Positions 18,506 to 26,132 of a stretch of 26,394 nt of DNA are shown piece by piece; position 1 is the stretch's first letter; each line of letters opens with the position of its first letter. The notes under the pieces were generated by a model. It ran no database searches, was not told where the DNA came from, and saw only the letters and a list, made by a program, of their open reading frames with translations. Source of the DNA: an uncultured Alistipes sp. (GTDB taxonomy: Bacteria; Bacteroidota; Bacteroidia; Bacteroidales; Rikenellaceae); contig CAMWGZ010000002.1 in the NCBI GenBank assembly GCA_947173915.1, positions 1 to 26,394 on the forward strand, in the 5' to 3' direction. A program made the position numbers and the translations under genes.

Positions 18506-18551
18506 GGTGCGGGGAGGGGCGAAAACACCCCGCCTGCATGGGATATGACGA

Positions 18552-18579
18552 AAAAGGCATCGGATTTCCGATGCCTTTT
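18552..18579. terminator. bidirectional terminator between the Clp unfoldase and aspS
   Basis: A 13-bp perfect stem (18552-18564 with 18567-18579, AAAAGGCATCGGA) has a 2-base minimal loop and A/T runs at both ends, so it can end transcription from both convergent genes. Confidence 0.87.
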
Positions 18580-18600
18580 CGTTGGTTGCCCTCCTGTGCG

Positions 18601-20355
18601 TTACTCCTGCGGCTGGCGCAGGTCGAGCAGCAGCTCGTCGAGCTGAGCCTGGTCGATGTAGCCCGGCGCATCGAGCATCACGTCGCGGCCGTTGTTGTTC
18701 TTCGGGAAGGCGATGTAGTCGCGGATCGACTCCGAACCGCCGAAGAGCGAGCAGAGGCGGTCGAAACCGAAGGCGAGGCCTCCGTGGGGCGGCGCGCCGT
18801 ATTTGAAGGCATTGATCAGGAAGCCGAATCGTTCCTGCGCCTGTTCGGGCGTGAAGCCCAGCAGCTCGAACATTTTGGCCTGCAGCTTCGAGTCGTGGAT
18901 GCGGATCGAGCCGCCGCCGATCTCGGTGCCGTTGCAGACGAAGTCGTAGGCGTTGGCGCGCACGCGGCCCGGGTCGCTGTCGAGGTACTGCACGTCCTCG
19001 GCCTTGGGCGAGGTAAAGGGGTGGTGCATCGCATAGTAGCGCTGCGTCTCGTCGTCCCACTCGAAGAGCGGGAAGTCGATGATCCACAGGGGGGCGAACT
19101 TCTTCGGATCGCGCAGCCCCAGCTGCTGGCCCACCTCGAGGCGCAGGGCGCAGAGCTGCGTGAGGGTCTTGAACTTCTTGCCGCAGAGGATCAGCACCAG
19201 GTCGCCTGCTTTCGCGCCGCAGCGCTCGGCCATCGCCCGCACCTGGTCGGGGGTGTAGAACTTATCGACCGACGATTTGACGCCTCCCTCCTCGACGCGG
19301 ATCCAGACCAGTCCCTTGGCACCGATCTGCTGGCGCTTGACGAACTCGGTCAGCGCGTCGATCTGCTTGCGGGTGTAGCCGGCGCAGCCCGTCGCCGCGA
19401 ATCCGGTAACGTATTCGGCATCGTCGAAGACCGGGAAGCCGTGTCCCTTGGCCAGCTCCGTGAGATCGGCGAACTCCATGCCGAAGCGCAGGTCGGGCTT
19501 GTCCGAGCCGTACTTCTCCATCGCCTCGATCCAGGGCATGCGGCGCAGCGGCTCGCTCAGCTCGATGCCCATGACCTCGCGGAACATGTGCTTGGCCCAG
19601 CGCTCGAAGATTCCCAGCACGTCCTCCTGCTCGACGAACGACATTTCGCAGTCGATCTGCGTGAACTCGGGCTGGCGGTCGGCGCGCAGGTCCTCGTCGC
19701 GGAAGCAGCGCACGATCTGGAAGTAGCGGTCGTAGCCGGCGACCATCAGCAGCTGCTTGAGGGTCTGGGGCGACTGCGGCAGGGCGTAGAACTGGTTGGG
19801 GTTCATGCGGCTCGGAACGACGAAGTCGCGGGCACCCTCCGGTGTCGAATTGACCAGGTAGGGGGTCTCGATCTCGAGGAATCCCTCCGAGTCGAGGAAG
19901 CGGCGGATCTCCTGGGCCATGCGGTGGCGCAGGATCATGTTGCGCTGCAGGGGCGGGCGGCGCAGGTCCAGATAGCGGTACTTCATGCGCAGGTCGTCGC
20001 CGCCGTCCGAGTTCTCCTCGATCGTGAAGGGCGGGACCTCCGCTTCGTGGAGGACGGTCAGCCGCTCGGCGATCACCTCGATGTCGCCGGTGGCCATCTT
20101 CGGGTTCTTGGCCGAGCGCTCGACCACACGGCCCTCGACCTGGATGACGTATTCGCGGCCGAGGGTTTCGGCAGCGGCCTTCACTTCGGCCGGCGAGTGC
20201 TCCTCGACGACGATCTGCGTGATGCCGTAACGGTCCCTCAGATCGATGAAGGTCATCGCGCCGAGGTTGCGGATCTTCTGCACCCAGCCGGCCAGCGTGA
20301 CCGTCTGCTGCACGTTCGCGGCCCGAAGCTGACCGCAGGTATGGGTTCTGTACAT
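18601..20355 (-). CDS. aspS: aspartyl-tRNA synthetase
   Basis: AspRS charges tRNA-Asp with aspartate in the cytoplasm. The 584-residue length is that of the bacterial type with the GAD insertion domain. The N-terminal OB-fold anticodon domain has [20 protein letters not shown]; a leucine (L31) sits where non-discriminating enzymes often have His, which favours a discriminating AspRS that does not charge tRNA-Asn. Class II motif 2 is [19 protein letters not shown] (about 217-235) and motif 3 is [14 protein letters not shown] (about 526-538). The start [10 protein letters not shown] fits family alignments. A consensus -7 box on this strand lies 41 bases upstream, and the 3' end meets a bidirectional terminator. 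Confidence 0.96.
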
Positions 20356-20358
20356 GGC

Positions 20359-20388
20359 TTGTATGTTTTGCTTTTAATTCGTATCTTG
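20359..20388 (+). promoter_or_regulatory. probable tadA promoter
   Basis: TTG at 20359-20361, a 20-base spacer and TATCTTG at 20382-20388 resemble the Bacteroidota promoter, with the -7 box one T short of consensus. The expected transcript start is about 20 bases before the tadA ATG. Confidence 0.45.
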
Positions 20389-20395
20389 CAACCCA

Positions 20396-20403
20396 CAAAG
20401 ATA
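20396..20403 (-). promoter_or_regulatory. -7 box of the aspS promoter
   Basis: Read on the minus strand this is TATCTTTG, an exact TAnnTTTG match 41 bases before the aspS start. The closest TTG on that strand (20419-20421) is at 15 bases spacing, shorter than usual. The box overlaps the expected 5' leader of tadA. Confidence 0.55.
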
Positions 20404-20412
20404 GGAAAAATA

Positions 20413-20859
20413 ATGGAACAACGGACCATCGACGAACAATTCATGCGCCGTGCGCTTGACGAGGCGCGGCGGGCGCTGGAGCGGCGCGAGGTGCCGATCG
20501 GGGCCGTCGTCGTGGCGGACGGGAGGATCGTGGGCCGGGGGCACAATCTGGTCGAGACGCTCGGCGATGCGACGGCGCATGCCGAGATGCAGGCGCTCAC
20601 GGCGGCCGCGTCGGGTATCGGCGGGAAGTACCTGGCGCAGTGTACGCTCTACGTGACGGTCGAACCCTGCGTCATGTGCGCCGGAGCCATCGCCTGGAGT
20701 CAGGTGGGGCGCGTGGTGTGGGGGGCCGACGACCCGAAGCGCGGCTACCGTCGCTATTCGGAGCAGATCTTTCTGCCGAAGGTGGTCGTGGAGCGGGGCG
20801 TGCTGGCCGAAGAGTGCGAGGAGCTGATGACTTCGTTTTTCGAATCGCTTCGCAGGTAG
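20413..20859 (+). CDS. tadA: tRNA adenosine(34) deaminase
   Basis: TadA converts A34 of tRNA-Arg(ACG) to inosine in the anticodon wobble position. The 148-residue protein starts at MEQRTIDEQF; the open frame continues far upstream, but only as antisense of aspS. The zinc and catalytic motifs of the cytidine/deoxycytidylate deaminase fold are present: H56-A-E58 in AHAEMQ with E58 as proton shuttle, and PCVMCAGA with C86 and C89. The stretch VVWGADDPKRGYRRYSEQI is typical of TadA (usually GA.DPK.GA.GS). It sits back to back with aspS. Guanine deaminase is a related fold but lacks this layout. Confidence 0.9.
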   Translation: MEQRTIDEQFMRRALDEARRALERREVPIGAVVVADGRIVGRGHNLVETLGDATAHAEMQALTAAASGIGGKYLAQCTLYVTVEPCVMCAGAIAWSQVGRVVWGADDPKRGYRRYSEQIFLPKVVVERGVLAEECEELMTSFFESLRR

Positions 20860-22281: not shown

Positions 22282-23586
22282 ATGGGATTTTTGTTTACGT
22301 CGGAGTCGGTCTCGGAAGGCCATCCCGACAAAGTCTCGGACCAGATTTCCGATGCCATTCTCGATGAGTTCCTGCGCCGTGACCCGGAGGCGAAGGTGGC
22401 GTGCGAGACCCTCTGCACGACCGGCCTGGTCGTCGTGGCGGGCGAGGTGCGGTCGAATGCCTACGTCGATGTGCAGGGGACTGCACGGCGCGTGATCAAC
22501 CGCATCGGCTACACCAAGAGCGAGTATCAGTTCGACGGCAATTCGTGCGGCGTGCTCTCGGCCATCCACGAGCAGTCGGCCGATATCAACCAGGGTGTCG
22601 TCCGCGAGGCGGAGGAGGCGCAGGGTGCCGGCGACCAGGGCATCATGTTCGGTTATGCCTGCAACGAGACGCGCGAGTACATGCCCGCGACGCTCATCCT
22701 CTCGCACGTGATCCTCAAGGAGCTGGCCGTCATCCGCCGCGAGGGGGAGGTAATGACCTACCTGCGCCCCGATGCCAAGTCGCAGGTAACGATCGAGTAC
22801 GATGAGCGGACGCACCGCCCCCTGCGCGTGCACACCATCGTGGTCTCCACGCAGCACGACGAGTTCATCGCCGCCGGCGGGGGAGTGGACGAGAAGCAGG
22901 CCGAGCGGCAGATGCAGGAGCGCATCCGCGAGGATGTCCGCACGATCCTCATTCCGCGCGTGAAGGCGCGTCTGGAGCGGGCGCACGACAAGTTGGCCGA
23001 GCTGATCGGCGACGACTATATCCTGCACGTCAATCCGACGGGCAAGTTCGTCATCGGAGGCCCCCACGGCGACACGGGACTTACCGGCCGTAAGATCATC
23101 GGCGATACCTACGGCGGCCGGGGTGCGCACGGCGGCGGTGCTTTCTCGGGCAAGGACTCCTCGAAGGTCGATCGCTCGGCGGCCTATGCGGCCCGCCATA
23201 TCGCCAAGAACATGGCGGCGGCAGGCATCGCGGACGAGGTGCTGGTGGAGCTGAGCTACGCCATCGGCATTGCGGAGCCGATCTCCGTCTATGTCGAGTG
23301 CGGCGCGGGACGCAACCCGAAGCTGGCTGGCATGACCGACGGCGAGATCGCCCGGCGCATCGCCCGGCTTTTCGACCTGCGTCCGGCGGCCATCGTCCGC
23401 AAGTTCGGTCTGAAGAATCCGATTTTCGAGGCGACGGCCTCCTACGGACATTTCGGCAACCGTCCCTTTACCCGTCGGGAGAAGGTGTGGGAGAACGGCC
23501 GCGAGGTCGAGCGTGAGATCGAGTTCTTCGGTTGGGAGCGGCTCGATGCGGTGGATGCGATCCGCCGTGAGTTTGCACTCGAATAG
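22282..23586 (+). CDS. metK: S-adenosylmethionine synthetase
   Basis: MetK makes S-adenosylmethionine from methionine and ATP in the cytoplasm. The 434-residue protein is somewhat longer than E. coli MetK (384), with extra residues in the middle and at the end, a form seen in Bacteroidota. The N-terminal motif [20 protein letters not shown] carries H14, D16 and K17. [16 protein letters not shown] is the hexapeptide signature region, and [20 protein letters not shown] is the P-loop-like second signature. [20 protein letters not shown] is also intact. The gene has its own promoter and SAM-responsive leader, and a strong terminator follows, so it is a single-gene unit. Confidence 0.96.
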
Positions 23587-23807: not shown

Positions 23808-24470
23808 TTACCAGACGATCGGCTCCTTGCCGATGCTGCGCAGGTACTCGTTGGCGCGCGAGAAGTGTTTGCTGCCGAAGAAGCCCCGATAGACCGACAG
23901 CGGCGAGGGGTGGACGGCCTTGAGGATGCAGTTGCGCTGCGGGTCGGCGATAGCCCCCTTGCGCTGGGCGTAGTTGCCCCACAGCATATAGACGATGCCC
24001 TGCTTGCGCTGGGCGATGGCCCGCACGACGGCATCGGTAAAGGTCTCCCAGCCGTGTCCCGCATGGGAGGCGGCCTCATGGGCCCGGACCGTCAGCACGG
24101 CGTTGAGCAGCAGCACCCCCTGCTCGGCCCAGCGGTCGAGGTTGCCGCTCGTCGGGACGGGTGCGCCCGTATCGTCGGCGACCTCCTGGAAGATGTTTTG
24201 CAGTGAGGGCGGGAAGGGAACGCCGTCGGCGACCGAAAAGCAGAGTCCGTTGGCCTGCCCCTCGCCGTGGTAGGGGTCCTGGCCGATGATGACTACGCGC
24301 AACTTGTCGAACGGACATTTGTCGAAAGCCCGGAAAATGTTGCTGCCGCGCGGGTAGATGCGGCGCGTGGCGTACTCCTGACGGATGAATTCGGTCAGTT
24401 GGGCGAAGTAGGGTTTTTCGAACTCCTCGGCAAGAAGCTCCTTCCAGTCCTGGGCGATTTTTACCTCCAT
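23808..24470 (-). CDS. ung: uracil-DNA glycosylase
   Basis: Ung removes uracil from DNA to start base-excision repair. The 220-residue length and sequence fit family 1. The start MEVKIAQDWK (24470) matches the family N-terminus; the frame runs open far upstream only as antisense of the riboswitch region. Motif A is VVIIGQDPYHGEGQANG, with the catalytic Asp in GQDPYHG. Motif B is AVHPSPLSVYRGFFG, with the His that stabilises the leaving uracil, followed by the usual SKHFSRANEYL end. A near-consensus -7 box on the minus strand, TACTTTAG, lies at 24491-24498. The gene converges on metK with the metK terminator between them. Confidence 0.95.
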   Translation of the reverse strand: MEVKIAQDWKELLAEEFEKPYFAQLTEFIRQEYATRRIYPRGSNIFRAFDKCPFDKLRVVIIGQDPYHGEGQANGLCFSVADGVPFPPSLQNIFQEVADDTGAPVPTSGNLDRWAEQGVLLLNAVLTVRAHEAASHAGHGWETFTDAVVRAIAQRKQGIVYMLWGNYAQRKGAIADPQRNCILKAVHPSPLSVYRGFFGSKHFSRANEYLRSIGKEPIVW

Positions 24471-24525: not shown

Positions 24526-24559
24526 TTTGCGGATCGGTACGTAGAAATCGCTATATTTG
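24526..24559 (+). promoter_or_regulatory. promoter of the cobalamin riboswitch transcript
   Basis: TTTG (24526-24529), a 22-base spacer and TATATTTG (24552-24559) resemble the Bacteroidota promoter, with a spacer slightly longer than usual. The start of transcription would fall within a few bases of the first aptamer stem. Confidence 0.65.
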
Positions 24560-24565
24560 CCCTCA

Positions 24566-24742
24566 GATTTGGTTTCCGACTCCCTGTTGCGGGGAGCGGA
24601 ATGAAAAGGGAATCGGGTGGAAATCCCGGACAGTCCCGCTGCTGTGAAGCTCCGCGACGTTCCGAATATCTTAGCCACTGGCCCCGCAGGGAGGGGTCGG
24701 GAAGGCTTCGGAACAGGAGTGAGTCAGAAGACCTGCCAAGTC
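24566..24742 (+). ncRNA. cobalamin (adenosylcobalamin-type) riboswitch
   Basis: This is a full cobalamin riboswitch aptamer. The closing stem P1 is GATTTGG (24566-24572) with CCAAGTC (24736-24742). In order it has the 5' GGTTTCC element, the GGGAATCGGGTG segment (24608-24619), the B12-box-like CCGCTGCTGTGA (24635-24646), GCCACTG (24673-24679), the GGGAAGGC turn (24699-24706) and the 3' GTCAGAAGACCTGCC (24723-24737). The class is well known for repressing B12 uptake and synthesis genes when the vitamin is present. The downstream region holds no such gene, only a 280-base leader and a small unknown gene. Confidence 0.95.
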
Positions 24743-25022
24743 GATTCGATATGGAACATGCTCGTGGGATTAGGTGTTTCGTTTCGGTTGGATAACATGT
24801 GTGAAATAGGTGGATTCCTCCCTCTCTTCCGGCTTTTTCGGAGGTAGGTCGGGGATGTGCGTTTCCGGTTGTGTCGCAACGGAAGGGGAGGCTTCGTTCT
24901 CGGACGGATGCCGCCGTTTCCGGGTCGGATGTCGTGCGGCGCCTGCCCGACGGGCGGTTGCGGCGGTGTTGTGCGCGGGTGGCGGCCGGTGCGTTCGTCC
25001 GGTGCGGGCGGGATTCGCTGCA
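24743..25022 (+). other. long leader between the riboswitch and the next gene
   Basis: These 280 bases have no convincing gene. Two short open frames begin close after the aptamer: 24751-24795 (14 residues, MEHARGIRCFVSVG) and 24758-24847 (29 residues, ending GGFLPLFRLFRR). A weak 6-bp hairpin (24826-24831 with 24839-24844) has a T-rich loop but no T-run after it. An open frame with a GTG start at 24810 joins the next gene in frame, but its first 71 residues look non-coding (Cys, Arg and Gly rich). The rest is GC-rich. The segment could be the expression platform, the remains of a lost target gene, or both. Confidence 0.55.
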
Positions 25023-25394
25023 ATGAATGTCAGTATGAATCTTGTGTTGTATGGATTTTCCGAGACGCAGGTAAACCGGCTGGTCGCGCGCTACGGATTC
25101 ACGTTGTGTCGCTCGTTCGAGGAGTTCGGTGCGGAGCGCTCTCTGTTGTCGCTGCCCCGGATCGAGTCGGAGCGGCAGATGTTCGACTCTTTCGAGCGTA
25201 TGACCGGCAACGAAGAACGGATCGACGCGGTGGTCGTCCTTCAGGACGAGTCGTTCTGCGTGCTCCATTACGGCTCCCAGCCCGGGAAGTTCTTCTGTGT
25301 CGGATGCGATGCGGAGGAGGAGCAGCTCGAATGCGAGCTGGACCGGATCGTCTGCGCGCGCCTCGGGCTGCTCTGTGCGCACGAAGGGGTGTGA
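25023..25394 (+). CDS. small protein of unknown function downstream of the cobalamin riboswitch
   Basis: I do not recognise this 123-residue protein. The start MNVSMNLVLYGFSETQ (25023) is the first good ATG after the leader; MNLVLYG, 12 bases on, is the alternative. It has no signal peptide or membrane helix and is acidic. It reads as alternating helix and strand: an N-terminal LVLYGFSETQVNRLVARYGF, a middle VVVLQDESFCVLHYGSQPGKFFCVGCD, and a C-terminal ECELDRIVCARLGLLCAHEGV. Five cysteines fall in the second half, including CVGC, which could bind metal; that is a guess. Codon use resembles its neighbours. It is the only gene on the riboswitch strand before the convergent YiiX-like gene, so it is the candidate target of the riboswitch. 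Confidence 0.65.
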   Translation: MNVSMNLVLYGFSETQVNRLVARYGFTLCRSFEEFGAERSLLSLPRIESERQMFDSFERMTGNEERIDAVVVLQDESFCVLHYGSQPGKFFCVGCDAEEEQLECELDRIVCARLGLLCAHEGV

Positions 25395-25437: not shown

Positions 25438-26097
25438 TTAGCGGCTGAAATCGAATACGACGGTCAGGCAGGACTCTTGTGCCATTTTGTTGGGATTTGT
25501 GCCGAGGGTGTCTTGCGGAACGGGCATGTGCAGTCGGTCGAAATGTTCGATCCAGTATTGCGGAAAGCACCCCTTGTCGTCTTTGAAGTTCATGGGCGCG
25601 GCCGGAAAGAGGCGGGTCGAATCGTTGCGGTCGAGGAATGTTTCCCAGACCAGTTCGGAGCAGTAGAACATGTCGTTGCCGGGCAGGAAGGTGTCGTCGT
25701 AAGGGCATCCGACCTTTTTCAAGGCTCGGGCGACCGCCTTTTCGGCGACTTTGCGGGCTGCGGGGGTGTTCAGCCGAGCGACGATTGCGATCGGTTTCCC
25801 CTCCCGGGTTTGGGATACCTGCAGGAACTGCTCCAGCGGGGTAATGGTTACGCCGGGTGCGGATTTCGCCTCGATGACCGATATTTTTCCTTGCTGTCGC
25901 CAGATGATGCCCACGTGGGTGAAGGTGTCGTCCGGGCGGTTGCCGCTCGTCGCCTGCTGGATGGCTTCGGTCATTCCGCCTGCTGCTCCGACCTGGAAAA
26001 TCAGATCGCCGGAGCGGAGTCCGTAGTTTTTCTTGCCGCATCCGGCCGACAGAAAGAATATACCTATATATAATATATAACAAAAGAGCTGTTTCAT
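25438..26097 (-). CDS. YiiX/YebB-like permuted papain-fold lipoprotein
   Basis: This 219-residue protein is a lipoprotein (lipobox LSAGC, C20; start at MKQLFCYILY, 26097) with a YiiX/YebB-like hydrolase domain, a circularly permuted relative of NlpC/P60 cysteine peptidases. Seen in order are the entry strand LRSGDLIFQ, the conserved histidine H61 in FTHVGIIW, the acidic VIEAKSAPG, and the cysteine C146 in MFYCSELVWETF. These are the usual catalytic His and Cys of this group. Possible substrates are cell-wall peptides or acyl groups; bacterial members remain mostly uncharacterised. The gene converges with the small unknown gene, with a 43-base gap and no clear terminator between them. Confidence 0.85.
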   Translation of the reverse strand: MKQLFCYILYIGIFFLSAGCGKKNYGLRSGDLIFQVGAAGGMTEAIQQATSGNRPDDTFTHVGIIWRQQGKISVIEAKSAPGVTITPLEQFLQVSQTREGKPIAIVARLNTPAARKVAEKAVARALKKVGCPYDDTFLPGNDMFYCSELVWETFLDRNDSTRLFPAAPMNFKDDKGCFPQYWIEHFDRLHMPVPQDTLGTNPNKMAQESCLTVVFDFSR

Positions 26098-26124
26098 CGG
26101 TGCCGTATTTTGTCGTTGCGGCGG

Positions 26125-26132
26125 CAAATATA
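26125..26132 (-). promoter_or_regulatory. -7 box of the YiiX-like gene
   Basis: On the minus strand this reads TATATTTG, an exact TAnnTTTG match 27 bases before the start codon. No clear TTG element lies at the normal distance upstream. Confidence 0.5.

Follow-up and report, generated by a model that had tools for sequence, protein, structure and literature searches.

A cobalamin aptamer probably governs a new, narrow family of small proteins in Alistipes

Cobalamin riboswitches reliably point to B12-related function. What, then, does such a switch control when the only gene behind it is a small open reading frame (ORF) of no familiar kind? This question is raised by a DNA stretch of 26,394 bases from an uncultured Alistipes sp. 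(hereafter the window), which makes up an entire contig (C2) of a genome (G000) that is 85% complete and divided into 214 contigs. Four cobalamin aptamers were found in this genome, and the other three have targets of the usual sort, namely two genes for TonB-dependent receptors and one for an anaerobic ribonucleotide reductase. The reductase gene, on contig C10 (L003), encodes NrdD with an ATP-cone, a B12-independent isoenzyme. We suggest herein, from comparison of related genomes, that the small gene behind the fourth aptamer probably represents a new and narrow family of the B12 regulon.

The aptamer (RF00174; 24,553 to 24,754, plus strand) is complete, as a preliminary description of this locus had held. 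The cmscan match in the window spans the whole model (1-189) and reaches 104.9 bits against a gathering score of 31.5 (E 1.4e-25). The promoter claimed for the aptamer has a putative counterpart in a TAnnTTTG element at 24,552 to 24,559 on the same strand, located with a script pattern and identical in its letters in the nearest relative (L011); we take it to be the Bacteroidota -7 element. The segment that follows the aptamer (24,755 to 24,812, plus strand) shares 54 of 58 aligned bases with L011 and is probably an expression-platform hairpin. A poorly conserved leader (24,813 to 25,034, plus strand) comes next, with 113 of 204 aligned bases the same as in L011 and 37 gap columns. The small ORF is the sole gene behind the aptamer on the aptamer's strand; both flanking genes lie on the minus strand, a divergent one of the uracil-DNA glycosylase superfamily (23,808 to 24,470; PF03167, 1.4e-19) and a convergent one of the Peptidase_C92 (YaeF/YiiX) family (25,438 to 26,127; PF05708, 4.4e-24). 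Among the ORFs and Pfam matches of the window, no gene for B12 uptake or transport, B12 synthesis or an isoenzyme was found behind the aptamer, in agreement with the preliminary description. An end of the transcript before 25,023 had been named as a finding that would speak against the gene, and no terminator-like site was found before the small ORF in the window leader. Elsewhere in the window, an ordinary SAM-II riboswitch (RF01726; 22,158 to 22,218, 68.3 bits) lies directly 5' of an S-adenosylmethionine synthetase gene (22,282 to 23,586), and a 773-residue ORF (18,538 to 20,859) ends in a cytidine/MafB19-type deaminase domain of about 140 residues, its first ~630 residues being without a Pfam match at E 0.1.

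The small ORF had been read as a gene of 123 residues starting at 25,023; the gene has proved real, and its start has had to be moved. Similarity of relatives to the 123-residue reading sets in at residues 3 to 5, where the relatives themselves have an ATG in frame, so that the ATG at 25,035 is the most likely start. The gene then occupies 25,035 to 25,394 on the plus strand (119 amino acids and a stop; family profile E 4.3e-58), and the leader between aptamer and ATG measures 280 nt. Twenty-four family members were aligned (alignment A5). Among 29 pairs more than 60% identical, which are not mutually independent, 28 gave dN/dS values of 0 to 0.26 and the remaining one was saturated. For the window and L011, dN is 0.113 and dS 0.453, and 267 of 317 bases of the shared coding part are the same, with differences at 11 first, 13 second and 26 third codon positions. 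The family is under purifying selection, and the small ORF has to be regarded as a genuine gene. In the same comparison the promoter and aptamer (24,526 to 24,754) are 97% identical (223 of 229 bases), as against 55% for most of the leader. Selection thus appears to have kept the aptamer and the protein and not the spacer between them. Decay of the frame in close relatives, another sign that had been named against the gene, is absent from the nearest one, L011, whose homologue is 78% identical over 106 residues with a frame open to the contig end, although it does occur in G026, G170 and G072.

How widespread is this family, and how firmly is it tied to the aptamer? According to a profile built from six relatives, 25 of the 180 genus genomes contain it; run on a sample of 393 genomes of the order, the profile matched the own genome only. 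When 268 genomes of the bacterial family were searched with a 24-row profile, 28 matched, namely the same 25 together with G610, G072 and G087. G610, of another genus, holds a family member at E 9.4e-37. The match in G072 (E 4.9e-4) was set aside as a gene remnant, and that in G087 (E 2.2e-4, within a 731-residue open frame) is probably spurious, its surroundings being without aptamer or hairpin. Among the 26 gene-bearing genomes, in which L011 and G169, apparently one contig, were entered once, 21 have a transcription unit headed by the aptamer; one (G163) was undecidable and four lack the aptamer. In 18 of the 26, aptamer and gene share a strand and are direct neighbours, the aptamer being 73 to 701 nt upstream (G000, G009, G012, G023, G032, G064, G065, G067, G169, G177, G178, G180, G184, G186, G188, G189, G191 and G195). 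Homologues standing mostly without the riboswitch, a further finding named beforehand as adverse, are therefore not what the genomes show, and the proposal of a new B12-regulon member with conserved linkage is borne out by the 21 aptamer-led cases.

A further directly linked case, outside these counts, is L131 (MT837887.1), a scaffold from human faeces labelled 'UNVERIFIED: Bacteriophage sp.'. It is probably a chromosome fragment of the Alistipes group; its ORFs were read by eye, and one of them appears to be MnmE-like. A mobile-element origin was considered and rejected, there being neither a plasmid match (tblastn) nor a viral-contig match (profile). Neighbour genes vary between subgroups, some being common to close relatives, and the linkage is not mere synteny.

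Four genomes (G026, G070, G175 and G183) have the gene, and the 1.5 kb upstream of it contain no aptamer. By eye, the promoter regions of G070 and L131 are still alike, but G070 no longer has the aptamer. The G026 gene carries an in-frame TAA, and no RF00174 match was present among the best 13 candidates scored in this genome (82% complete) in a genus-wide search with strict filters; gene and switch may be decaying together there. G065 has a second, longer copy of the gene (L048, G065:C29), and the 3.3-kb locus around it (L034) holds no aptamer. Because of these four genomes and the second G065 copy, it appears that the gene can persist without B12 control. The longer copy also contains an Ala/Pro/Glu-rich insert of ~95 residues, roughly where a profile alignment with adenylate kinases (see below) places the missing NMP-binding part. 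Conversely, G170 and G072 keep the aptamer and a hairpin next to what is, by eye, only a remnant of the gene. On a tree of 26 members, rooted at its midpoint for drawing only and with several long branches that are unsure, directly linked members fall on either side of the root and unlinked ones are scattered; the linkage states need seven changes, not fewer than with shuffled labels. An ancient pairing, lost late and on separate occasions, agrees with this pattern better than a small number of recent gains would. That the switch is an orphan, its original target lost and the ORF behind it a chance or unrelated one, was the other branch of the preliminary description. The 280-nt leader with its weakly conserved middle and an ORF without known family would suit such an origin, but the gene is linked to the aptamer in 21 of the 26 genomes, selection on it is purifying and linked members occur across the family tree, which together largely refute the idea. 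We regard it as hardly credible; it fails for the window genome, even though decay of this kind is seen in the relatives G170 and G072.

A second RNA element accompanies the gene in part of the family. It is a hairpin of 74 to 84 nt (longer in G064 and G188) just 5' of the ATG, composed of a GC outer stem between an A-run and a T-run, and of an inner hairpin. The CTGCC letters of the loop and a downstream GAT are invariant in 11 aligned copies (eight with the gene, two with a remnant, one without gene), and folding z-scores are -4.0 to -4.8 in the three copies tested. In the 11 model-aligned hairpins, both partners vary in 10 of the 22 pairs, and the covariation score was reached by 0 of 500 shuffles; rows gathered with the model lean toward its structure, and the shuffles ignore relatedness. 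A MAFFT alignment with a fixed 20-pair structure, in which G610 replaced G064, gave nine covarying pairs of 20 (0 of 500 shuffles). One hairpin model, R2, was left unused, its inner helix being unlike the covariation-supported one. With strict filters and the best 17 candidates per genome scored, so that weak copies may be missed, model R3 matched at least 15 of the 268 genomes, 13 of them at this locus: 10 with the gene, two with the remnant (G170 and G072), and G061 without a family match. Two matches elsewhere, stems of 33 to 39 nt in G579 and on another contig of G023, were taken for ordinary terminators, and G068 has a degenerate copy of 20 bits. In the window there is no R1 or R3 match, the best being 5.3 bits with filters off; L131 is likewise without the hairpin, yet has kept aptamer and gene. 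Rfam 15 searched with a hairpin-bearing locus (L055) returned only RF00174 up to E 1, a short hairpin pattern showed no excess over control in the own genome, and pseudoknot pairings of the CTGCC loop, sought by eye and with no tool, did not seem conserved. On these sequence features we read the hairpin as an attenuator that belongs to the small gene, and as a candidate new RNA element essentially restricted to this locus. In G061 (L096, G061:C5), aptamer and hairpin occur with no small gene, and promoter-like motifs and, further on, a CobA/BtuR adenosyltransferase gene follow.

In some genomes the transcription unit has an additional member. The order aptamer, Asp-Al_Ex permease, small gene is found in G063, G068 and G610, which represent two genera. 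The permease carries a TrkA_C regulatory domain (PF06826, PF02080), and that of G610 was identified through its 75% identity to that of G068. In G163 the contig is cut 363 nt upstream of the gene, within the end of the same permease, which probably makes it a fourth case; the permease link is thus seen in three, perhaps four, of the 26 genomes. In this operon form the hairpin begins 3 to 8 nt after the permease stop. Mere presence of an Asp-Al_Ex gene is uninformative as a correlate of the family, since 170 of 180 genus genomes have one. These arrangements bear on the possibility that the RNA is itself the product, a short B12-controlled transcript that comprises the aptamer and any hairpin behind it and ends at the hairpin T-run, the gene being separately controlled or dispensable. 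The hairpin is indeed shaped like an intrinsic terminator (GC stem and T-run) with a loop invariant in 11 copies; G170, G072 and G061 retain aptamer and hairpin without an adjoining intact gene, and G070, G175 and G183 retain the gene without the aptamer. Against this, the window and L131 have aptamer and gene and no hairpin, a permease gene separates aptamer from hairpin in G063, G068 (where the hairpin is degenerate) and G610, and the remnants in G170 and G072 resemble decay of the gene itself. A short RNA of this kind is accordingly quite improbable as the main product of the locus.

The protein itself offers few landmarks. Its highest 19-residue hydropathy mean is 0.83 and the N-terminus is not hydrophobic, so there is no obvious signal peptide or membrane helix, and the family would appear to consist of cytosolic proteins of ~120 residues. 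The preliminary description had guessed at metal binding from the CVGC motif of the window protein, and a role in handling cobalamin or metals, with Cys or His as the binding residues, could also draw on the C-terminal HE(G/E) found in 19 of the 26 proteins examined. However, CVGC is private to the window protein (1 of 26), no Cys or His is invariant in the 24-row alignment, and one subfamily ends in (E/K)GN..N(L/F) in place of CAHEG. The guess from CVGC accordingly falls, and binding of this type is very improbable. That the protein is of no known family was confirmed: for the window protein, 24 family members and a consensus sequence alike, matches in Pfam, NCBIfam and PHROGs did not rise above chance level, and no fitting family emerged from Pfam or NCBIfam. 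In the open-licence literature we recognised no paper treating either the small-protein family or the second hairpin.

A more distant kinship is suggested by profile comparison. In a PDB profile search, 7 of 12 matches were adenylate kinases and these ranked first, with E values of 0.087 at best and none significant. The family and 28 adenylate kinases of the genus and the order align collinearly in hhalign (P 4.1e-5 local over 114 columns, 9e-7 global over 117), although the family alignment used for this test is the one that had suggested the kinase idea; with G610 and L131 added, P is 3.6e-5 local and 5.9e-7 global. The reversed profile gave 0.26, and the score of 35.4 compares with 29.7 for the best of 200 column shuffles. 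Taken block by block, residues 1 to 34 correspond to kinase positions 2 to 34 (P 1.2e-6; 4.5e-7 with the genus kinases alone) and residues 73 to 119 to positions 157 to 193 (P 4e-4; genus alone 0.0028). The middle block, residues 35 to 72 against positions 92 to 114, is not significant (P 0.078; genus alone 0.21), and shuffles can outscore it. With the genus kinases alone the local alignment is limited to the first 27 to 28 N-terminal columns. In a control with 25 ORF families from the same loci, some of them possibly wrong-frame ORFs, adk came first after the family itself with 35.6, followed by a kinase fusion (26.7), and the highest score among 22 unrelated families was 21.2.

Perhaps, then, the protein has nothing to do with adenylate kinase, and is a B12-regulated protein with a generic alpha/beta (Rossmann-like) N-terminus or a domain of periplasmic-binding-protein type. 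Adenylate kinase is unsupported by HMMER, which listed no PF00406 match for the 24 members; NF001383 matches one of the 24 at E 0.055 and 13.1 bits against a cut-off of 225, no better than several unrelated single matches. The six-row profile has no kinase among its nine matches and favours periplasmic binding proteins (0.12), as the consensus sequence weakly does in Pfam (0.08), and the middle block is, as noted, not significant. The collinear hhalign matches at the N- and C-terminal ends, the whole-alignment shuffles and the 22 unrelated control families argue the other way. An unrelated fold is thus a real possibility, though not the one we prefer; we lean toward adenylate-kinase origin, the protein being a core without P-loop, NMP-binding part and LID. 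The Walker A pattern GxxxxGK[ST] is found in none of the 26 proteins examined, and an alignment gap takes out part of the P-loop. Because the P-loop is missing, the protein should not be a kinase and phosphotransfer is expected to be absent.

The locus is probably best explained as a working B12-responsive unit, in which the aptamer controls a narrow family of small proteins, made in B12 shortage, whose putative degenerate adenylate-kinase core would bind rather than catalyse. By analogy with known cobalamin riboswitches, binding of cobalamin to the aptamer would turn expression off. In B. thetaiotaomicron, according to PMC8941943, cobalamin riboswitches repress downstream genes when B12 is present. 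If cobalamin shuts off expression here as well, the protein would be made in B12 shortage, and would appear alongside the two TonB-dependent receptors and NrdD, the B12-independent reductase. Its action most likely consists in binding, either of a partner protein or of a ligand that contains adenine, a proposal with moderate support, since a protein without a P-loop should not be a kinase. The process it serves might be a riboswitch-controlled transport route, a weak suggestion made because the gene directly follows the Asp-Al_Ex permease in G063, G068 and G610, from two genera, and probably in G163. A more elaborate scheme, which we consider unlikely, would have the cobalamin aptamer and a new terminator-like class of cis-regulatory RNA jointly control an adenylate-kinase-derived pseudo-kinase that links a lack of B12 either with the status of adenine nucleotides or with the permease. 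The second element would then have as its ligand a nucleotide, some protein, or the small protein itself.

The family constitutes a compact new group in Alistipes, with a defined start codon, an operon partner and natural losses of switch or gene. The second conserved RNA element, unmatched in Rfam, adds to its value. If the adenylate-kinase origin is true, a kinase core shorn of its catalytic parts has been set under vitamin control.

Four known systems invite comparison. With the RF00174 regulon in Bacteroidota the locus shares a full-length aptamer above the gathering score, and it differs in that the window target is an undescribed small protein and that ten carriers add a locus-specific hairpin before the ATG. 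The B12-binding lipoproteins BtuG and BtuH (DUF4465) of Bacteroides are likewise extra proteins at B12-riboswitch loci, and BtuH of gut Bacteroidota binds B12, as described in PMC8941943. Unlike them, the small protein has neither a DUF4465 nor a beta-propeller Pfam match and no hydrophobic N-terminus, and the window gene is not within a btuB operon. The Asp-Al_Ex permease (PF06826, PF02080) shares an aptamer-led operon with the gene in G063, G068, G610 and probably G163, as a partner and not a homologue; in carriers with direct linkage, aptamer and gene have no permease between them. Finally, adenylate kinase (Adk, PF00406) resembles the small protein through collinear profile similarity at the N- and C-terminus and, weakly, in the middle, whereas the small protein lacks Walker A, is ~70 residues shorter, falls below the Pfam and NCBIfam cut-offs, and in the profile alignment is without the NMP-binding and LID parts.
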